Shown here one piece after another: positions 10,649-60,670 of a DNA stretch of 64,000 nt. The position numbers and the translations under genes were made by a program. The notes below the pieces were generated by a model. It saw only the letters and a program-made list of their open reading frames with translations, was not told where the DNA came from and made no database searches. Origin of the DNA: Alcanivorax sp. (GTDB taxonomy: Bacteria; Pseudomonadota; Gammaproteobacteria; Pseudomonadales; Alcanivoracaceae). The stretch covers positions 248,001 through 312,000 of the forward strand of contig JAIUME010000001.1 in NCBI GenBank assembly GCA_022565695.1, read 5' to 3'. How positions within the stretch are numbered: the first letter of the stretch is position 1; every line of letters starts with the position of its first letter.

Positions 10649-11017
10649 ATGGCCGTCGAAGTGGTATATCGCAGCAGCCGGGATCTGGAGCAATTATTCA
10701 TGGATAAAGCCGAAGCAGACCGCCATGACAAGATGCTGGAGCTGGCGGAAATGTTGACCAGTGTGTTGCAGAAAGCCGAGCCGTCGCTGAGCGAGCAACA
10801 GGGCGAGAATCTGGGCATCTTCATGGCACGCCACCGGACCATTTTCGCCAAGGCCTTCAAGAGCCAGGCCGATGCACTGAATGAACTGGCAACATCTGAT
10901 GCGGGCTCTGATGCGGGCTCTGATGCCGGCTCTGATGAAAAGTCTGGTGCAAAACCGGATGCAGTATCCGGTATGGGGTCCGGTATGGAGCCTGGTAAAG
11001 AATCCAGCGCAGCGTAA
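10649..11017 (+). CDS. yebG: YebG-family SOS-induced protein with repeat-rich C-terminal tail
   Basis: The first 80 residues match YebG: MAVEVVYRSSRDLEQLFMDK, then EADRHDKMLELAEMLT and a helical part ending in KAFKSQADALNEL. YebG is a small DNA-damage-induced protein of unclear function. A LexA box lies just upstream and AGAGG precedes the ATG. Unlike the 96-residue E. coli protein this one is 122 residues, because a tail of about 40 residues follows (DAGSDAGSDAGSDEKSGA and further Gly, Ser, Lys, Met), coded in part by a 12 bp tandem repeat. The tail is likely disordered. Confidence 0.86.
   Translation: MAVEVVYRSSRDLEQLFMDKAEADRHDKMLELAEMLTSVLQKAEPSLSEQQGENLGIFMARHRTIFAKAFKSQADALNELATSDAGSDAGSDAGSDEKSGAKPDAVSGMGSGMEPGKESSAA
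10895..10938 (+). repeat. 12 bp tandem repeat in yebG (three and a half copies)
   Basis: The unit TCTGATGCGGGC occurs at 10895 and 10907, with a one-base variant at 10919 and a partial copy at 10931. It is in frame and codes for SDAG repeats in the C-terminal tail of YebG. Confidence 0.9.
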
Positions 11018-11020
11018 TGC

Positions 11021-11080
11021 GTCTCAGGGTTTCACCATAAGCCTCACGGTTTCACCAAAAGCCTCACGGTTTCACCAAAA
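11021..11080. repeat. 20 bp tandem repeat across the stop codon of the LysE-type gene
   Basis: Three head-to-tail 20 bp units end at 11040, 11060 and 11080. The second and third (GCCTCACGGTTTCACCAAAA) are identical and the first differs at about three bases. On the minus strand the last codons and stop of the LysE-type exporter (LLVKP, stop at 11064) lie in the copy nearest the gene, so the other two copies are duplicated gene ends lying outside the gene. Confidence 0.92.
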
Positions 11081-11708
11081 GATAGGCACCGGCACCCACC
11101 ATGAGACTGCCCGCAGTAACCTTGATACTGCGGGCTGCCGCGAGTCCTTTGCCAAGTGGGCCGCCCTGCCCTGTGAGCGTTGCTGAGTAATAGGCATAAC
11201 CCAGTTTGACGCCACCCACTGCCACCACCGTCAGCGCGATGATGATAGCAATATCGAATGCGCTGATAGCAGTCAGGTCGACAAACACCGGGAACAGGCT
11301 TGCGTAGAACAGTATCGCCTTCAAGTCGCCCAGCGTGAGGATCAGGCCGGAGAGAAAACTGGCAGTCATGCTGGGCGCTGAATGCCCGGAGACTGGAAGC
11401 CCGCTCTGCGCGCTCTGCAACGACGCCTTCGACCTGATAAGGCTGATGCCAAACCAGATCAGGTAGATGCCCGCGAGATATCGGAGAATCAGGAACAGGC
11501 CGCCCATCACCTCGGCCAGCGCGGTCATGCCAAGCACCGCGAGGAAGACAAACACCAGATCACCCAGCACGATACCGGCGGAAACCGCAGCGCCGTGCCG
11601 AAAGCCGGCGGTGGATGAGCGCACCACAACCAGCGCGACACTGGTGCTCGGCAACAGCGCCAGCATGGCCAGCACAGAGAACAGCGTGACTATTTCAAAT
11701 GCACCCAT
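11064..11708 (-). CDS. LysE/RhtB-family amino-acid exporter-like protein
   Basis: The 214-residue product is an inner-membrane protein with six spans and the LysE family pattern: LLPSTSVALVVVRSSTAGFR after the first span, GIVLGDLVFVFLAVLG, and LRYLAGIYLIWFGISLIRS. The family exports amino acids or related small molecules. In P. aeruginosa the chp cluster ends with chpE, also a LysE-type gene, so this could be a displaced counterpart; that is conjecture from position. Its ATG lies 13 bp after the cytochrome b561 stop, so they are probably co-transcribed. Confidence 0.85.
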   Translation of the reverse strand: MGAFEIVTLFSVLAMLALLPSTSVALVVVRSSTAGFRHGAAVSAGIVLGDLVFVFLAVLGMTALAEVMGGLFLILRYLAGIYLIWFGISLIRSKASLQSAQSGLPVSGHSAPSMTASFLSGLILTLGDLKAILFYASLFPVFVDLTAISAFDIAIIIALTVVAVGGVKLGYAYYSATLTGQGGPLGKGLAAARSIKVTAGSLMVGAGAYLLVKP

Positions 11709-15891: not shown

Positions 15892-18800
15892 TCAGTCGCT
15901 GGGCGCACTGGCGGTCTCCCGCGCCTGAGCCAGCAGTTCGGAAATGGTCGCCAGCAGTTCGCTTTCCTGGAACGGCTTGCCCATGTAGGCGTTGACGCCT
16001 ATGTCGAACGCACGGTCGCGATGCTTCTCGCCGGTCCGCGAGGTAATCATGATGATCGGCACGTCTTTCAGGCGCTCGTCGTGGCGCACATGGGTCGCCA
16101 CCTCGAAGCCGTCCATGCGTGGCATTTCGATATCCAGCAGCATCAGATCCGGCTTGTATTCCTCCAGCGTGGCGATGGCATCCATACCGTCCTTGGCAGT
16201 GATGACCTCGTAGCCGCTGCGCTCCAGCAAGCGCGTGGTCACCTTGCGCACGGTCACCGAGTCATCGGTCACCATGATCAGCGGATTGGCGGCGGCACGT
16301 TCTGCCTGCACCAGTTTCTGACGATCATGCTCCAGCGCCAGGGCAGCACGGCGCTCTTCTGCCGCGTAATGCTGGCGCTGCATGTGCGCGGCACGGATCA
16401 GCGAATGAATATCCAGAATGATGACCACTGAGCCGTCACCCAGGATGGTCGCGCCACTGATACCGGCGACGGTCGCCAGCTGCGGGCCCACCGATTTCAC
16501 CACAACTTCCCGCGAGCCCACCAGGGAATCCACCAGCACCGCCACAGTGTGCTCAGAGCTGCGCACCAGCAGCACGGGCATCGGCAATACCTGGGTATCC
16601 AGATGCTGCGGCTTCAGCGAACCATGTACGAAACTGCCGAGGTATTCGAAATCATATTGCTGCCCGGCATAGGTAAAGGGCATTTCTTCGGTGTTGAAAT
16701 AATCTTCCAGCTCGTAAGGGCTGATACGCACGATACCTTCGATCTGGTTCAACGGTATGGCGTAGCTGTCGTCGCCGACCCGCACCATCAGGGCGCGGTT
16801 CATGGCCAGGGTAAATGGCAGGCGAATCACGAAGCGGGTGCCTTCACCGCGCCGGGAATCAATGGTGACCGAGCCACCCATCTGTTTGATTTCGGATGCC
16901 ACCACGTCCATGCCGACGCCGCGCCCGGAAATCTGGGTCACCTGTGCTGCGGTGGAGAAACCGGCATTGAAAATGAACTGCTGGATTTCCTGATCGGTCA
17001 GCATGGAGTCGTCGTCGATCAGGCCGCGCTCCACAGCTTTTCTGCGCACGGCATCCGTGTCGATACCCTTGCCGTCATCGGACAGCGTCATCACCACTTC
17101 GCCGCCTTCGCGGCCCAACTCCAGAGTCACGCGGCCGCTGTCGGATTTGCCGCCGGCCACGCGTGCATCCGGGCTTTCGATACCGTGATCCACGGCGTTA
17201 CGCAGCATGTGTTCCAGCGGCGCGACGACGCGCTCAAGCAAGGTGCGGTCGAGTTCGCCTTCCGGGTTGAGGACGTCGAACTCGACCCGCTTGCCAATTT
17301 CGCCGGATACCTGCCGCACCACACGACGCAAACGCGGCACCAGGCGGGCGAAGGGCACCATGCGCGTGCGCATGAGTTTTTCCTGCAGCTCGGTGTTGAT
17401 GCGCGCCTGTTGCAGCAGCAGGGTTTCGGTGTCCTTGGTGCGATCCAGCAAGGTGCTTTTCAGATCGAGCAGATCCGATGCGGATTCCGACAGCTGTTTG
17501 GTGATCTGGTGCAGTTCGGAATACTGGTCCATTTCCAGCGGATCGAAATCTTCCGAGTACTGGCCCGCTTCCACGCCCTGTTTGTAGTTGGACATGATCT
17601 GCGCTTCGGTCTCTGAATCGAGCCGGCGCAGCTGCTCGTAGAGCCGCTCTACGGTGTTGCCCATTTCTTCAACGTGGGCGTTGAATTCCGTAATCCCCTG
17701 CTCGACGCGACCACGGTTGATACTGGTTTCCCCGGCCAGGTTAACCAGGGATTCCAGCAGCTCGGATGCCACGCGCACCATTTCCTGGGGCTGCTGCTGG
17801 CGGCGCTGGCGTTCTTCGCGGATCACCTGGGCGTCCGGTTTCACCATGTCGGTGGCGGGCGCCTGCTCGGCCGGCAACTCTGGTGTGGCGGGCCGTACCG
17901 GGGGCTTGGGCACGGCGGCGCTGATCTGTTCCATCAGGCCGGCCAGGCGGGTCAGCCAGCCACTCAGGGTATTGAAGTAGGCCTCGTCCGGCACATGGCC
18001 GCGCGGCGTATCCAGCAAAAACTGTTCGAACTCGTGGCTGGCATCGCCCAGGGATTTCAGGCCGGCCAGGCGTGCGCCGCCCTTGAGGGTGTGCAGCGCA
18101 CGTTTGATTTCATCGTTATGGGTGCTGACCTGGGGTGTTTCGCGCCAGGCGCCAATATGTTCGTCGATCAGCTCGGCCAGCTCGGCGGATTCCTCGATGA
18201 AAATCTGCAGGATTTCCACATCGGCATCGGCGGCGATCAGATCCGTGCTGACCGGTTCCGGCGCGGGCGGCGGGGTGTAGATCGGCTCGGCAGTATTTGC
18301 GCCACCCAGATCAGCCAGGCTGAAGCTGGCCGGGTCCGACATGTAGTCGCTGATGCCGGTCATCAGTTCATTCGCCGGGGCCAGCGCGCGCTCTTCCTTG
18401 ACCGCTTCGACCATTTCGGCCAGCCGGTCGTGGCAGCGATGCAGCAGATCAAACAACACGGGTTCTGCGCGCAGGCGACCCTGCGCCAGGCCTTCGTAGA
18501 GGTTTTCCAGCTCGTGGCCCAGATCGCCCAGCTCGGGAATCTCGGCCATACGTGCGCCGCCTTTCAGCGTATGCAAATCCCGCTGCAGAGACTGCACTTC
18601 AATCAGGTTATCCGGCGCGGCCATCCAGGCTTCCAGGCGGCCGGTAATGGCTTCCAGAATTTCGTCGGCTTCTTCGAGAAAAATCTCGACCAGTTCCATA
18701 TCGCGTTCTGAGCCACGTTCTGAGCCGCGTTCTGAGCCGCGTTCTTGCTCGGGCACGGCACCAGAGTGAGCGTCAACGCCCGCATCAAAAGATGGCGTCA

Positions 18801-21800
18801 GCTCTGGCTCAGGCTGGAACTCGGGCTCCGGCTCGGCCATGTTTGTGTTTGTGTTTGTGCTTGTGCTTGTACCTGTGTTTGTGCCAGCCGGAAACGCCTG
18901 GATTGCCGCCACCAGATCCGGGGCCGGCTGCACAGGGCGGGCATCGCGCAACGCATCCACCATATCCGCGAGACGGTCATGGCAACGGTGCAACAGGGCA
19001 AACAGATCGGGACTGCCGGTGAGCTTGTCCTGGGTCACGGCTTCGTAGAGATTTTCCAGTTCGTGGGCGAGATCGCCCACGGGCGTAATGCCCGACATCA
19101 GGGCGCCGCCTTTCAGGGTGTGCAGTTCGCGCTGCAATACCGCGACATGGCTGATATCACCGCCCTGCTCCCAACCGTCGAGACTTTCGCTGGCCGCATC
19201 AAGAATCTCGCCGGCTTCTTCCAGGAACAGGGCAGCCAACTCCGGGTCTGCATCTTCCGCCATAAACCGGCCGGTCTGATCATCGCCAGGCGTCTGCGCG
19301 GCGTCCGTGCTTTCCGGATTTGTGCTTTCCGGGCTTGTGTTTTCCAGTTCAGCACTATGCCAAGGCGTCTCTGAGCTGCCGCCGCCGGGGCCGCCCTCGG
19401 GGTCATTGTCCGGGTCGTTTATGTTATCCAGCAGGTCCCGCAGCGCCTGCACCAGTTCGGGCTCAGCCCGTACGGTTTGCCCGGCAGCGAGGAAATCCAT
19501 CATCGTCATCAGCGCTTCGTGGGCTTGCTGTGCAAGCTCCACAAAATGGTCGTCGCATTCCAGGCGGCCATCTATGACAGCGGTATAACCTTCCGACAGC
19601 ACGTTGGCCAAGGTGCTGATTTCGGTCAGCCCCGCGGTATCGGCACTGCCGCCCAGCAGCGACAGTTCGTCGCGCAGGGGCTTGAGCGTGCCCGCGCTGT
19701 CCTGGTCGACCATCCATTGATCCAGCAGACGGTCTGCATCCACGATCAGGTCCATGCCTTCCGACAGGAACACCGACAGTATGTGCTGGTCCCCTTTCTG
19801 CTCGCCGATGTGGGTGAGCTGCTCGTGGGCCATGGCGATGCGGACGGCGAGTGCTTCGCTGCCGGCCAGTGGCGGCATACCCGGGTGGGCATATCCGATG
19901 CCCCGCTCGATGACACTTACCACATCCTGCAGCAGGGTGATCACTTCGCGGTCGGCGCGTACGCCGTTGTTGATCATTTCCTTGACGAATTTTTCTGCCG
20001 GCTCGGCGACTTCCGCCACGGCTTCGATTTCCGCCATGCGGGCGCTGCCCTTGAGGGTATGCAGGGCGCGGTGAACACTGTCATCCATCGGGTGTTCGGA
20101 AATATGCTGATCCAGGCTATCCAGCCAGGCATGCACCAGGGCGATATTGGCATCGCTCTCGTTACGGAAAATCTCCAGCAGTACCGGATCGGTGTCGTCT
20201 GCGTCCGTGACGGTCGTGTCCGAACCAGGCGCGCCTGAAACAGTCATGTCCGGCACGTCCAGAGGCTGATCCTCTATAGAGGACTCTATCGGAGACTCTG
20301 TCCGGAAATCTGTGCCGCCAGGCAAGCTGCTGTCATCGAAGGTGATTTCTTCCGCGTCGTCAGTCAGCCAGTCCGGCGCCGTGCTCGCGTCCGTTTGTTC
20401 ACCGTCAATCTCGTCAACATCAATCTCGTAAACGCCGAGTTCTTCACCGACCGTCAGATCGCTCTGGCCGGCGCCGATGACATCCGGTATCACGCTGATG
20501 CTGCCGCCAGCGGCGAGTGCATCCGCCGCATCACTGAGCGGCGTGACGTCGTAGGGGTCAGGCTTCTGGGCAGCAAAGGCTTCCACCAGTGCCGGCACCA
20601 GTCCGTGCACCTTGCGCACCAGCTCCACCAGGATCGGTGTGGGTTCGATGGTCTGGTCGATGACACGGTTCATCATGTTTTCGACGGACCAGGCCAGTTC
20701 GCCCACGGTGGTGGCGCCAACCATGCGGCCGGAGCCTTTCAGCGTGTGGAAGGCGCGGCGGAATTCAACCAGCGCTTCCTGATCCTGCTGATTGGCGGCC
20801 CAGCGCGGGAAATAGATATTCAGGGCTTCCAGCACTTCGCTGGCTTCTTCGACAAAGATTTCGATGATTTCATCATCGATCAGGTCGTCATCCCCTCGGG
20901 CAGTCGGCGGCGTGGTGACCGATGGATTGGTGACCGGTGGAGTGGTAACCGATGTAGTCTCGACGGCGCTGAGGGTGATGTCCTCGTCGCCGTACTCTTC
21001 ATTCGGTTCGTCCGTCAGCGCATCCTTCAGCGCATCCTTCAGCGAATCAAGGCGCTCACCCGCGTCCGCATCAGCCTGCTCGGGTGCGGGCTCCAGTGTA
21101 ATGCTGTAATCGCCATCCTGTTCGTCAGCCGCTGCGTCACCGTAGTCGAAATCGTCTGACATGCTCTCCGGGGCCGCTGGCACAAACTGCTCGGCATCGG
21201 CGGCTTCGCTTTCGGTGTCATCGCTCGCGGTGTCATCACTTTCACCGTCATCATCACGGCGACCAAATTCCTGATCGTCCAGCGGATAACCGAGTGCCGC
21301 CACGCTATCACGGGCCAGATCGAGAATGCTGTCGCTGGTATCCGGGTCGTCCGTCAGACGCTCCAGAAAATATTCGACGCTGGTGATGGCATCCGCCAGG
21401 GTGTCCATGCTGCGCCAGTCCGGTGTTACGGCGTCTGCGCCAAGCAGCTTCTCGCTGACATACACTACGCACTGACGCAGGATCAGCGCCGGGCGTTGCA
21501 GCTGAATCAGCTGCAGGCCACCGCGCACGGCATCCAGACGCGCAGGCACTTTTTCCAGATGGGATTGCTGCCACTGGGACGCAATAAATTCGACGATGCC
21601 GTCTTTGGCTTCTTCCAGCCCGGCACGGCATTCGCGAATCACCGCTTCCTGGGCCTTGCTGACGTGATCCGGTATCTGGGCCAGTTCGCCAGTGCGGCCA
21701 TGGCCTTTGCCGGACAGCCCGGCCAGCGTGGCTTCCACGAACAGCAGCGCACCCGCTATGTCCATCAGGTCTTCGCGTGCAGCGGGTCGCTCGCCGGCGA

Positions 21801-22959
21801 CCATCGCATCCAGCACGGCCAGTTGTTCTTCCACCAGCTTGCGTGGCTGTCCAAGCCCGAGCACCGCAACAGTATCTGCTACCTGCTTGAGCGTCTGGCT
21901 CTGGGGTTGCAGCACCGCTGGATCGGTCTGCTCTTCCATCACATAGCGTTCCAGCGCTTCTTTGACTTTGCTCAGTTCTTCGGACAGCGCGGTGACAACC
22001 GACCCCATGGCCTCCTGGTCCGGGCCACTCATGCGCTCGCGTTCGGCATTGACCAGCTCTTCGGACGGCAAGGCGTCATCCAGGCGGAAGCTTTTGCGCA
22101 GGGCGCTGATACGGGGGCTGTCGGCGTTGCTGCGTGCAACGTAGTACAGCAGATTTTTCAGCAAATCCTGTGGCGGCGGCGTGGACAAGTGCGGGGCGCC
22201 TTCGGCTACCAGGTCACGCAGTTGTCGATCAAGATGGCCAAGCACCATCTTGACCGAGGTGCCGATCTCAATGGTGCCGTGGACGAGACCTTCCACCAGC
22301 GCGTTGGCCGCTTGCCACAACGAGGCCTGGGGGGCATCACCGGAGACCTGCTCCAGCTTGCCGAACACCTTGCCCATGTATTCCAGATTCTGAGGCAGGT
22401 TGTCGTTACGCAAGGTGCCGAGCAGTGCAATCTGATACATCTGCCGAATCTTGCGCACCAGCTGGCCAAAGTTAGGATCAGCGGCAGCAGCAGAAGGGGC
22501 GCCGGTGTGTATCGCGCCCCCGGCGATGTCCGGTTTGAACAGAGAGGTTTCGGATAACAGGGATTCGCCACGTGCGGCGCGCAGGTCGTTCAGCAAGGGC
22601 AGCAGCACCAGTGGCAGATCGCGTCGGCTGGACTGGATGCGAGCCAGATAAGGTGGCAACTGCAGGATCGCGCGCATCAGGGTTTCCAGCGCGTCGTTCA
22701 GTTGCCCGGCGCCAACACGCTCTTCCAGCAGCGCTTCCGCCAGCTTTTCCATTTCTTCGGCAAGCAGGGCGGCGCCATAGAACTCGACCATCTGCAAGGT
22801 GCCGTACACCTGGTGCAGATAGGTCTGGCAAAAGCGCATGCGCGAAGAATCTTCGGGATTCTCCACGTAGGCTTCCAGGGCCTGTTGGGCCTGATTCAGG
22901 GTTTCCTGAATCTCGCCTTTGACCCAGTCCAGAGCCAGATAGTCGTGGCGGTCAGACAT
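15892..22959 (-). CDS. chpA: Pil-Chp chemosensory histidine kinase ChpA
   Basis: The 2355-residue protein is close to the 2472 residues of P. aeruginosa ChpA (PilL). After an N-terminal degenerate phosphotransfer-like region there are five canonical Hpt motifs with the phospho-accepting His at about residues 738 (HTLKGSGRM), 966 (HTLKGSARM), 1279 (HTLKGGALM), 1462 (HTLKGGARM) and 1622 (HTLKGGARL). A CheA-type dimerisation and ATPase part follows (HMLRNAVDHGIE near 1916, LSDDGKGID near 1960, GRGVGMDVV near 2015), then a CheW-like domain (about 2080-2200) and a C-terminal receiver with Asp in LMLLDIEMPRMDG near 2277. It phosphorylates PilG, PilH and its own receiver. Linkers between Hpt domains are acidic and built from short tandem repeats. 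AGGAG precedes the ATG. Confidence 0.97.
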   Translation of the reverse strand: MSDRHDYLALDWVKGEIQETLNQAQQALEAYVENPEDSSRMRFCQTYLHQVYGTLQMVEFYGAALLAEEMEKLAEALLEERVGAGQLNDALETLMRAILQLPPYLARIQSSRRDLPLVLLPLLNDLRAARGESLLSETSLFKPDIAGGAIHTGAPSAAAADPNFGQLVRKIRQMYQIALLGTLRNDNLPQNLEYMGKVFGKLEQVSGDAPQASLWQAANALVEGLVHGTIEIGTSVKMVLGHLDRQLRDLVAEGAPHLSTPPPQDLLKNLLYYVARSNADSPRISALRKSFRLDDALPSEELVNAERERMSGPDQEAMGSVVTALSEELSKVKEALERYVMEEQTDPAVLQPQSQTLKQVADTVAVLGLGQPRKLVEEQLAVLDAMVAGERPAAREDLMDIAGALLFVEATLAGLSGKGHGRTGELAQIPDHVSKAQEAVIRECRAGLEEAKDGIVEFIASQWQQSHLEKVPARLDAVRGGLQLIQLQRPALILRQCVVYVSEKLLGADAVTPDWRSMDTLADAITSVEYFLERLTDDPDTSDSILDLARDSVAALGYPLDDQEFGRRDDDGESDDTASDDTESEAADAEQFVPAAPESMSDDFDYGDAAADEQDGDYSITLEPAPEQADADAGERLDSLKDALKDALTDEPNEEYGDEDITLSAVETTSVTTPPVTNPSVTTPPTARGDDDLIDDEIIEIFVEEASEVLEALNIYFPRWAANQQDQEALVEFRRAFHTLKGSGRMVGATTVGELAWSVENMMNRVIDQTIEPTPILVELVRKVHGLVPALVEAFAAQKPDPYDVTPLSDAADALAAGGSISVIPDVIGAGQSDLTVGEELGVYEIDVDEIDGEQTDASTAPDWLTDDAEEITFDDSSLPGGTDFRTESPIESSIEDQPLDVPDMTVSGAPGSDTTVTDADDTDPVLLEIFRNESDANIALVHAWLDSLDQHISEHPMDDSVHRALHTLKGSARMAEIEAVAEVAEPAEKFVKEMINNGVRADREVITLLQDVVSVIERGIGYAHPGMPPLAGSEALAVRIAMAHEQLTHIGEQKGDQHILSVFLSEGMDLIVDADRLLDQWMVDQDSAGTLKPLRDELSLLGGSADTAGLTEISTLANVLSEGYTAVIDGRLECDDHFVELAQQAHEALMTMMDFLAAGQTVRAEPELVQALRDLLDNINDPDNDPEGGPGGGSSETPWHSAELENTSPESTNPESTDAAQTPGDDQTGRFMAEDADPELAALFLEEAGEILDAASESLDGWEQGGDISHVAVLQRELHTLKGGALMSGITPVGDLAHELENLYEAVTQDKLTGSPDLFALLHRCHDRLADMVDALRDARPVQPAPDLVAAIQAFPAGTNTGTSTSTNTNTNMAEPEPEFQPEPELTPSFDAGVDAHSGAVPEQERGSERGSERGSERDMELVEIFLEEADEILEAITGRLEAWMAAPDNLIEVQSLQRDLHTLKGGARMAEIPELGDLGHELENLYEGLAQGRLRAEPVLFDLLHRCHDRLAEMVEAVKEERALAPANELMTGISDYMSDPASFSLADLGGANTAEPIYTPPPAPEPVSTDLIAADADVEILQIFIEESAELAELIDEHIGAWRETPQVSTHNDEIKRALHTLKGGARLAGLKSLGDASHEFEQFLLDTPRGHVPDEAYFNTLSGWLTRLAGLMEQISAAVPKPPVRPATPELPAEQAPATDMVKPDAQVIREERQRRQQQPQEMVRVASELLESLVNLAGETSINRGRVEQGITEFNAHVEEMGNTVERLYEQLRRLDSETEAQIMSNYKQGVEAGQYSEDFDPLEMDQYSELHQITKQLSESASDLLDLKSTLLDRTKDTETLLLQQARINTELQEKLMRTRMVPFARLVPRLRRVVRQVSGEIGKRVEFDVLNPEGELDRTLLERVVAPLEHMLRNAVDHGIESPDARVAGGKSDSGRVTLELGREGGEVVMTLSDDGKGIDTDAVRRKAVERGLIDDDSMLTDQEIQQFIFNAGFSTAAQVTQISGRGVGMDVVASEIKQMGGSVTIDSRRGEGTRFVIRLPFTLAMNRALMVRVGDDSYAIPLNQIEGIVRISPYELEDYFNTEEMPFTYAGQQYDFEYLGSFVHGSLKPQHLDTQVLPMPVLLVRSSEHTVAVLVDSLVGSREVVVKSVGPQLATVAGISGATILGDGSVVIILDIHSLIRAAHMQRQHYAAEERRAALALEHDRQKLVQAERAAANPLIMVTDDSVTVRKVTTRLLERSGYEVITAKDGMDAIATLEEYKPDLMLLDIEMPRMDGFEVATHVRHDERLKDVPIIMITSRTGEKHRDRAFDIGVNAYMGKPFQESELLATISELLAQARETASAPSD
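18704..18748. repeat. 12 bp tandem repeat in chpA linker (Gly-Ser-Glu-Arg)
   Basis: The unit TTCTGAGCC(A/G)CG is repeated three to four times between the third and fourth Hpt domains and codes for GSER repeats on the minus strand. Confidence 0.88.
18839..18885. repeat. TTTGTG hexanucleotide repeat in chpA linker
   Basis: About seven copies of TTTGTG or GCTTGT-like hexamers code on the minus strand for an alternating Thr-Asn/Thr-Ser tract (TNTGTSTSTNTNTNM) between Hpt 3 and Hpt 4. It is a microsatellite in coding sequence with a period that keeps the frame. Confidence 0.88.
19308..19352. repeat. 15 bp tandem repeat in chpA linker (Pro-Glu-Ser-Thr)
   Basis: Three 15 bp units, GTGCTTTCCGGATTT, GTGCTTTCCGGGCTT and a diverged third beginning GTGTTTTCC, code for repeats of the PESTN/PESTD kind (SPESTNPESTDA) before Hpt 3. 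Confidence 0.8.
20405..20434. repeat. 15 bp tandem duplication in chpA (EIDVDEIDG)
   Basis: TCAATCTCGTCAACA followed by TCAATCTCGTAAACG codes on the minus strand for the repeated EIDV(D)EID stretch in the acidic linker before the second canonical Hpt domain. Confidence 0.75.
20914..20958. repeat. 15 bp tandem repeat in chpA linker (Val-Thr-Thr/Asn-Pro)
   Basis: Three units at 20914, 20929 and 20944 (GGTGACCGATGGATT and two variants) code for the VTTPPVTNPSVTTPP tract just before the first canonical Hpt domain. Confidence 0.82.
21015..21050. repeat. 12 bp tandem repeat in chpA linker (DALK)
   Basis: TCAGCGCATCCT occurs at 21015 and 21027, with a diverged copy (TCAGCGAATCAA) at 21039. It codes for LKDALKDAL in the acidic linker. 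Confidence 0.85.
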
Positions 22960-59230: not shown

Positions 59231-60670
59231 TTACTGCTCTCCCTGCCGAGATGTGTCACCGGGCTGGCCTGCAGCCGGCGCGTCCTGTGATGCTTTCTGT
59301 GATGCTTCTTGTGATGTGCTGCTCGGCCGCTGCCAGCCGCTGAGGTTGCGCTGTTTTGACCGCGCCACGGCCAGTTCTTTCTCGGGGACATCTTTGGTCA
59401 CGACACTGCCGGCCCCCACCGTAGCACCGCTGCCGACACTGACCGGCGCCACCAGCGAACTGTTGGAACCGATGAAGGCATTGTCGCCGATATGGGTCTC
59501 GAACTTGTTTACGCCGTCGTAGTTACAGGTAATGGTGCCTGCGCCAACATTGACGTCCCGACCAAGGGTCGCGTCTCCAAGATACGTCAGATGATTGACC
59601 TTGCTGCCCGGGCCGATCAGTGTCTTTTTTGTTTCGACAAAATTACCGACCCGGGCACCCGCCGCCAGCTCGGTGCCCGGCCGCAAGCGCGCGAACGGCC
59701 CGACGTGGCAGTCTTCACCCACCACCGCACCGTCCACGACCGAATTGGCCTCAATATGGGAACCCTCGCCGATACGGGCGTTGCGAATCAGACAGTTCGG
59801 GCCAATGGTGACCCTGGCCGCAATATCCACCTCACCCACCAGCACCGTGTTGATATCCAGCACCACATCCTGGCCACAGCGCACATTGCCGCGCACGTCC
59901 AGCCGCGCCGGATCCATCACGGTCACACCGTCGCGCATCAGCGCTTCCGCCTGAACCTGTTGATAAACCCGTTCGAGCCGCGCCAGTTGAACCCGGTCAT
60001 TAACGCCGTCCACTTCCCAGGGGAATGACGGCTGCACCGCATCAATGGTCAGGCCATCTGCCACGGCCATGGCAATCACGTCGGTGAGGTAATACTCGCC
60101 CTGGGCGTTGTTGCTGGACAGTTTCGGCAAGGCCTGGTCCAGGAATGCCCTGGGGCAGGCGAGAATGCCGGTGTTGATTTCGCGGATCGCCTTCTGAGTC
60201 GCGTCGGCATCCTTGTATTCCACGATCGCCTGCACGGCGCCCTCGGCATTACGCACAATGCGACCGTAGGCACCGGGGTCCGCCATCTCCAGCGTCATCA
60301 ATGCCAGGGTGTCCGGCTGCACACGGGACACAAAGTCTCGCAGGGTTTCGGCGCGGATCAGCGGCACATCGCCGTACAGGATCAGCACCACCTCTTCAGA
60401 AATATGCGGCATGGCCTGCGCCACAGCGTGGCCGGTGCCCAGTTGTTCGGCCTGCTCGGCCCAGATCACATCCGTGGCCGGCACTTCGCGCTGTACCCGA
60501 TCACCGCCGTGGCCAAACACCACACAGATGCTGCCGGGGGAAAGTGCCCGGGCGGTATCAATGACATGGCCAAGCATCGGCTTGCCCGCCAGCGGGTGCG
60601 CCACTTTGGGCAGGTCGGAGCGCATGCGCGTGCCCTTGCCCGCTGCGAGAATCACGATTGCCAGTTCCAT
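59231..60670 (-). CDS. glmU: Bifunctional UDP-GlcNAc pyrophosphorylase / glucosamine-1-P acetyltransferase
   Basis: The 479-residue protein has the N-terminal uridylyltransferase (about 1-228; [47 protein letters not shown]) and a left-handed beta-helix acetyltransferase (about 250-455) with hexapeptide repeats, [40 protein letters not shown] and [19 protein letters not shown]. It makes UDP-GlcNAc for peptidoglycan and lipid A. The usual end KGWKRP is followed here by a tail of about 25 residues rich in Ser, Gln, Ala and Asp ([14 protein letters not shown]), coded by a 12 bp tandem repeat. AAGGAAGAGCA precedes the ATG. glmS follows 2 bp later. Confidence 0.97.
59286..59321. repeat. 12 bp tandem repeat in the glmU 3' end
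   Basis: TGTGATGCTTTC, TGTGATGCTTCT and a diverged TGTGATGTGCTG at 59286, 59298 and 59310 code for the Ser-Gln-(Glu/Lys/Asp)-Ala tail of GlmU. Confidence 0.9.

Follow-up and report, generated by a model that had tools for sequence, protein, structure and literature searches.

Seven in-frame tandem repeat arrays in the length-variable linkers of an Alcanivorax ChpA

The window analyzed here, a stretch of 64,000 nucleotides from Alcanivorax sp. (GenBank assembly GCA_022565695.1, contig JAIUME010000001.1, positions 248,001 to 312,000), carries a chpA gene encoding a CheA of the type IV pilus (Tfp) class, and the linkers between the domains of this protein hold seven short tandem repeat arrays. 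A preliminary description of the locus had reported six in-frame arrays in the ChpA linkers; Tandem Repeats Finder (TRF), run on the window at a score threshold of 50, recovers all six, with starts displaced by 0 to 4 bp, and adds a seventh at 21206 to 21243, and all of them fall inside the chpA open reading frame (ORF). The unit lengths of 6, 12, and 15 bp, noted there as divisible by three, are confirmed by TRF, each of the seven arrays having a unit that is a multiple of three. With linker boundaries taken from an alignment of 40 sequences, the features are as follows, in window coordinates.

15892..22959, minus strand: chpA (pilL type), a Tfp-class CheA; 2355-aa ORF, identified from its translation and Pfam matches
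20905..21276, minus strand: linker A, aa 562-685, with three arrays
21206..21243, minus strand: array 1, 15 bp x2.5, ESDDTASDDTESE, TRF score 55, absent from the preliminary list
21011..21048, minus strand: array 2, 12 bp x3.2, DSLKDALKDALTD, TRF score 62
20912..20958, minus strand: array 3, 15 bp x3.1, TTSVTTPPVTNPSVTT, TRF score 66
20206..20469, minus strand: linker B, aa 831-918, flanked by the HTLKG domains at aa 738 and 967, with one array
20405..20433, minus strand: array 4, 15 bp x1.9, VYEIDVDEID, TRF score 51, the weakest, with about two copies
19246..19422, minus strand: linker D, aa 1180-1238, with one array, between a conserved block without an HTLKG motif (approximately aa 1055-1179) and the HTLKG domain at aa 1280
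19307..19345, minus strand: array 5, 15 bp x2.6, LENTSPESTNPEST, TRF score 57
18721..18891, minus strand: linker E, aa 1357-1413, flanked by the HTLKG domains at aa 1280 and 1463, with two arrays
18840..18884, minus strand: array 6, 6 bp x7.3 or 12 bp x3.8, GTNTGTSTSTNTNTNM, TRF scores 53 and 62
18702..18745, minus strand: array 7, 12 bp x3.7, QERGSERGSERGSERD, TRF score 81; it overruns the alignment-defined end of linker E by 7 residues, to aa 1420
18244..18318, minus strand: linker F, aa 1548-1572, without an array at TRF score 50
17797..17904, minus strand: linker G, aa 1686-1721, ahead of the kinase dimerization region, without an array, neutral, and the least variable in length

Linkers A, B, D, and E therefore hold three, one, one, and two arrays, respectively, and the two linkers closest to the kinase, F and G, hold none at TRF score 50. 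Shuffling codons within each linker yields a mean of 0.02 arrays (0 of 1000 trials reach 7), and resampling synonymous codons while keeping the protein yields a mean of 0.66 and a maximum of 4, with none of 1000 trials reaching the observed 7. Because synonymous resampling gives 0.66 arrays against the 7 observed, the repetition is present at the DNA level and is not a mere by-product of repeated amino acids.

Pfam matches along ChpA comprise six Hpt stretches, H-kinase_dim, HATPase_c, CheW, and a response-regulator receiver (Response_reg), i.e., several Hpt domains ahead of the CheA core and a receiver at the C terminus, as in the Tfp-class CheA proteins ChpA and PilL. Seven neighboring genes match CheW, CheB, CheR, MCP/PilJ, a second CheW, and two receiver domains, so that the PilJ-type receptor, CheW, CheR, CheB, and the two single-domain receivers found beside a Tfp-class CheA are all present by Pfam. 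On these matches the region is a Pil-Chp cluster with a predicted type IV pilus role; the gene names within it are those that we presume by analogy.

We compared chpA among the genomes of the family, taking one genome per species and designating the genome of the window G000 and its nearest sequenced relative G003. Full-length orthologues were available from 40 of the 46 genomes; we excluded G006 (chpA split over two contigs), G034, G037, G041, and G044 (pieces on separate contigs), and G010, in which the front part is interrupted or duplicated. In the last of these (G010:C1:2852487-2857218, L074), the front part matches twice in succession, query residues 304-858 at 59% and 1-858 at 63% identity, and by these matches the gene is either partially duplicated or interrupted. 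The structure alignments A1 and A2 contain 39 of the 40 sequences, omitting G033, which is 99.2% identical to G027, and an alignment read by eye contains 12 genomes, namely, 11 of the 40 and G006.

Across the 40 orthologues, the six linkers total 115 to 556 aa, whereas the remainder of the protein measures 1960 aa with a standard deviation (SD) of only 5.3 (range, 1948 to 1979). Mean linker lengths (± SD) are 85 ± 40 aa for A, 97 ± 52 for B, 42 ± 18 for D, 39 ± 17 for E, 32 ± 10 for F, and 35 ± 7 for G, and linker E alone spans 4 to 77 aa. Having the smallest SD, linker G, at the kinase, is the most constrained, and lengths within ten sister pairs differ, in mean relative terms, by 0.005 for G and 0.055 for F, compared with 0.10 to 0.16 for A, B, D, and E. 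The preliminary description had held that spacing between phosphotransfer modules may be free to vary, and had named identical linker lengths in all close relatives as the observation that would speak against its proposal. Such identity was not found: G000 and G003 (87.6% identity) differ by 28 aa in linker A, 25 in B, 3 in D, and 19 in E, with equal summed non-linker length, and linker length differs in 14 of the 15 pairs at or above 90% domain DNA identity (12 of 12 pairs at 90 to 95% and two of three above 95%), the exception being a pair at 99.2%. Between species, the spacing is free to vary.

For linkers B and E of the G000 protein, each modeled with AlphaFold2 together with its flanking Hpt domains, the models give a predicted local distance difference test (pLDDT) score above 90 for most Hpt residues and below 50 throughout linker E and most of linker B. 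Sequence variation and linker-like composition over the 40 species would suit flexible disordered linkers, disorder itself being modeled for B and E of G000.

None of the seven arrays was found in relatives within the genus by an ungapped search with two repeat units, in which the best matches reach 0.57 to 0.71 among genus sequences and at most 0.75 among 42 other chpA sequences (two of which are pieces of one gene). Control 28-mers from the linkers, compared with one relative only, match at a mean of 0.61 and a maximum of 0.68; a single query, of 24 bp, scores slightly above that maximum, at 0.71 in each of two genus members, and the arrays as a shared ancestral feature are unsupported. Pairwise alignment of array 7 with G003 places one unit in G003 and three more in G000, a difference of 36 bp (3 x 12). 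Relatives have repeats of their own, such as a 45-bp repeat in linker A of G003, a 6-bp array of 11 copies in linker B of G001, and, in G005, a 15-bp segment that is 93% identical to its neighbor and missing in G004.

Arrays concentrate in linkers throughout the family, where 25 of the 32 arrays in the 40 orthologues sit in linkers and TRF covers 3.04% of linker bases versus 0.14% elsewhere. The 25 linker arrays, seven of them from G000, are spread over 14 orthologues, and the other 26 have none. Outside the family, we sampled 20 of 68 matching genomes of the order, chosen roughly by score and with both chpA ends on one contig (other genomes that also qualified were left out); 12 of the 20 genes have at least one array, with different units and 23 arrays in total, of which at least two, judged by eye, lie in domains rather than linkers. 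Several of these are far longer (e.g., 22 copies of a 6-bp unit coding for EA), and the linkers of chpA look like recurrent repeat sites across the order. Long EA, PE, or other arrays occur in the chpA genes L189 (G084), L184 (G096), L195 (G123), L203 (G094), and L186 (G075), and one gene of another family has three copies of a 90-bp unit.

We regard recent frame-keeping duplications within disordered, acidic tethers under relaxed constraint as the best explanation of the seven arrays, with a probability of roughly 0.8. The linkers would be acidic, intrinsically disordered chains that tether the helical Hpt modules to one another. Purifying selection would hold domain length nearly constant and keep the reading frame, and a wide range of linker lengths and sequences would be tolerated provided that the chain remains disordered and, except near the kinase, acidic. 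Units of 12 to 15 bp would be added to such relaxed stretches by replication slippage or short tandem duplication, only the frame-keeping events (those in multiples of three) would survive, and we infer that the surviving additions are nearly neutral. The seven arrays would have arisen after the G000 lineage split from its sequenced relatives, which is the simplest view because no relative shares them; gain in this lineage rather than loss in all relatives is likewise the simplest reading of the sequences. A unit length divisible by three says little about function, because other lengths break the frame.

Arrays also occur elsewhere in these genomes. Samples of 400 kb contain 44 arrays in G000 (11 per 100 kb) and 10.8, 7.0, and 6.8 per 100 kb in G003, G004, and G019, compared with 1.0 per 100 kb in Markov resamples; G000 and G003 together have 87 arrays versus 55 in G004 and G019 (800 kb each; binomial p = 0.009). 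Disorder-like coding sequence has 0.32 arrays per kb in the G000 sample (5 in 15.7 kb) and 1.18 per kb in the remainder of the window (2 in 1.7 kb).

Several observations weigh against the explanation by duplication in relaxed tethers, at least as a complete account. Disorder-like sequence of chpA has 6 arrays in 0.84 kb, or 7.1 per kb versus 0.32 in such sequence of the G000 sample, an excess for which bare relaxation does not account. At the sample rates, Poisson probabilities are 1.7e-5 for seven arrays in a 7-kb gene and 4e-7 for six in 0.84 kb of disorder-like sequence, although the locus was picked for standing out, so that both these values and the density excesses are inflated. The 317 mechanically picked ORFs in the G000 sample have at most two arrays apiece (three arrays are reached by a single ORF in the G003 sample and by a single one in the G004 sample), and the seven arrays of G000 chpA compare with at most 3 in the other 39 orthologues. 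G003 has a similar genome-wide density and yet one linker array in chpA, by which a slippage-prone genome is rejected as the full explanation. For G001 and G045, synonymous recoding yields repetition as strong as that observed in the DNA. Among close pairs at or above 85% domain identity, linker length differs in all 12 in which either member has an array (mean summed difference, 54 aa) and in 25 of the 26 in which neither has one (34 aa). Mean identity is equal in the two sets, and the larger differences of the array-bearing pairs would also fit a repeat-driven process. Finally, duplication is only part of linker turnover, because most gaps between close relatives lack a visible tandem duplication.

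This last point comes from 106 linker gaps of at least 6 bp in 21 close pairs, only 10 of which resemble adjacent sequence at 0.75 identity, with the reservations that the pairs are not independent, that gap placement is uncertain, and that the G000-G003 pair lies below the identity cut. By size, duplication-like gaps make up 8 of 32 at 6 to 8 bp (7% for random segments), 2 of 43 at 9 to 15 bp (2%), and 0 of 31 among longer gaps, and these counts do not support tandem duplication as the chief origin of linker insertions and deletions. Linker gaps are multiples of three in 148 of 184 cases; since the frames used are open, the others are probably due to aligner placement.

The preliminary description went further than free spacing and suggested a possible evolvable tuning device for the twitching response. 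In such a device, copy number would be kept variable because linker length would set the effective concentration of each Hpt domain at the kinase or receivers. We find this part improbable. The density of arrays in chpA far above background, the length differences in nearly all pairs at or above 90% identity, the greater divergence of array-bearing close pairs, and the recurrence of arrays, built from different units, in the chpA genes of further families would all suit it. Under simple chain scaling, effective concentration goes approximately as n^-1.5, and the differences between G000 and G003 in linkers A, B, and E would correspond to 1.5- to 1.8-fold changes. By the same scaling, however, one 4-aa unit in linker E (57 versus 53 aa) would change the concentration by only about 12%, and the span of 4 to 77 aa in that linker suggests that no particular length is needed. 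The 26 orthologues without linker arrays vary almost as much as those with them (total length, 336 ± 107 versus 321 ± 110 aa), even if the relative spread of linkers A, B, and E is 0.53, 0.61, and 0.56 with arrays and 0.42, 0.49, and 0.36 without, and arrays as short and imperfect as these would not be expected to change copy number at a high rate. Repeats are not a general engine of linker length change, to which they may contribute.

Charge, in place of length, could be what selection maintains in the linkers. Mean net charge per residue, in linkers of at least 15 aa, runs from -0.29 in A and -0.30 in B through -0.21 in D, -0.16 in E, and -0.12 in F to +0.01 in G, and the G000 linkers (-0.27, -0.27, -0.24, -0.14, -0.12, and 0.00 from A to G) fit this family profile despite their seven arrays. 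With alignment-based linkers, charge and position along the chain show a positive rank correlation in all 40 orthologues, whether linker G is included or not, and linker identity accounts for 69% of the variance in charge with G included. An alignment-free method anchored on a sequence motif gives a positive correlation in 39 of 40 family members and in 19 of 20 chpA genes of other families, where the gradient is weaker (mean rho, 0.37); the species counted are related, and these counts are not independent. Within linkers, charge is no tighter than in random draws from the pooled linkers for A (SD, 0.067 versus 0.061), B (0.068 versus 0.058), or D (0.104 versus 0.082), and E shows no clear tightening (0.070 versus 0.089, within the 5 to 95% range); only linker F is lower than random (0.051 versus 0.089). 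Charge held tighter than chance within each linker is thus unsupported for A, B, and D and not clear for E, and it is the difference between linkers, not the charge within each, that is consistent. A graded acidic chain under selection for charge and not length, into which repeats insert spacer undisturbed and so retune contact between Hpt modules and the kinase or receivers, strikes us as doubtful. As to codon use, which might bear on rare codons or pausing, the linkers of 39 of 40 orthologues have a lower GC content at third positions than the domains, the threonine codons ACA and ACT being more frequent in them.

That the repeats follow from amino acid composition or protein-level repetition, with DNA repetition as a by-product, seems very unlikely to us. 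As this idea would have it, net charge is negative for linker A in all 40 species scored and for linker B in all 39, and when synonymous resampling is applied to four orthologues, the observed number of arrays is reached in 1000 of 1000 trials for G001, 724 for G045, 479 for G003, and 54 for G029 (and the observed summed score in 162, 425, 53, and 4, respectively). For G000, in contrast, resampling never exceeded 4 arrays, by which the idea is rejected there, although it could still hold for the arrays of G001 and G045; the strong DNA-level signal is special to G000 and perhaps to G029. An assembly or sequencing artefact, for which only the draft state of the genome (22 contigs) speaks, is very unlikely, because the arrays, at 29 to 47 bp, are shorter than the usual short read, their units differ by substitutions, and seven separate in-frame errors inside an intact 2355-codon frame are implausible.

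At least three further arrays lie elsewhere in the window. A 12 bp x3.6 array at 10895-10937, SDAGSDAGSDAGSDE, sits near the C-terminal end of a 122-aa ORF (10649-11017, plus strand). Just past this ORF, at 11023-11081, is a 20 bp x3.0 array (score, 104) whose unit is not a multiple of three and which overlaps the end of an ORF on the minus strand (11064-11708). The third, 12 bp x2.8 at 59283-59316, is in the C-terminal tail of a 479-aa ORF whose product, judged by its sequence, looks like GlmU.

With the Tfp-class CheA (ChpA or PilL) of Pil-Chp systems, as presented in the accessible parts of Berry et al. on CheA architectures (PMC10542144) and of a Pil-Chp review (PMC12632253), the gene shares multiple Hpt domains, the kinase core, CheW, the C-terminal receiver, and its neighborhood; those parts do not treat linker repeats, length turnover, or charge. 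Nor did we find a paper on tandem repeats in ChpA linkers among the matches listed, which comprised titles and the starts of abstracts, most subscription journals lying outside the search. The arrays differ from contingency or phase-variable loci, where copy change toggles frame or expression, in that all units are multiples of three (promoter arrays were not searched). Frame-keeping coding repeats need such units, as in Borg ORFs, whose repeats, in the portion of that paper available, are likewise recent, seldom common to two genomes, often located in disordered regions, and sometimes present as several arrays per ORF (PMC9879509). Borg repeats are, however, near perfect, pervasive in extrachromosomal elements, and described as under very strong selection (PMC9879509), whereas those of chpA are short and imperfect and sit in one chromosomal kinase gene.

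Why ChpA has so many phosphotransfer domains is described as an open question in the accessible part of the review (PMC12632253). Loose spacing, conserved domain lengths, and the charge gradient would argue that the Hpt modules are tethered diffusing units and not a rigid assembly. Flexible disordered linkers, as far as the available part of their description goes, vary in sequence while keeping disorder, and they function by spatial confinement; those of processive enzymes conserve length (PMC6540235), which ChpA linkers do not. There is also a likeness to protein tandem repeats in general, which, in the part of the source at hand, are enriched in disorder-promoting residues and within disordered regions and are said to be mostly of duplication origin (PMC7230257): chpA has units in multiples of three in its linkers, repetition at the DNA level, and low pLDDT in linkers B and E, and what sets it apart is just how many arrays a single gene carries. 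The arrays are an unusually dense case of a known process in one gene of the G000 lineage, and their interest lies mainly in illustrating well how recent micro-duplications specific to one lineage occur within disordered linkers.

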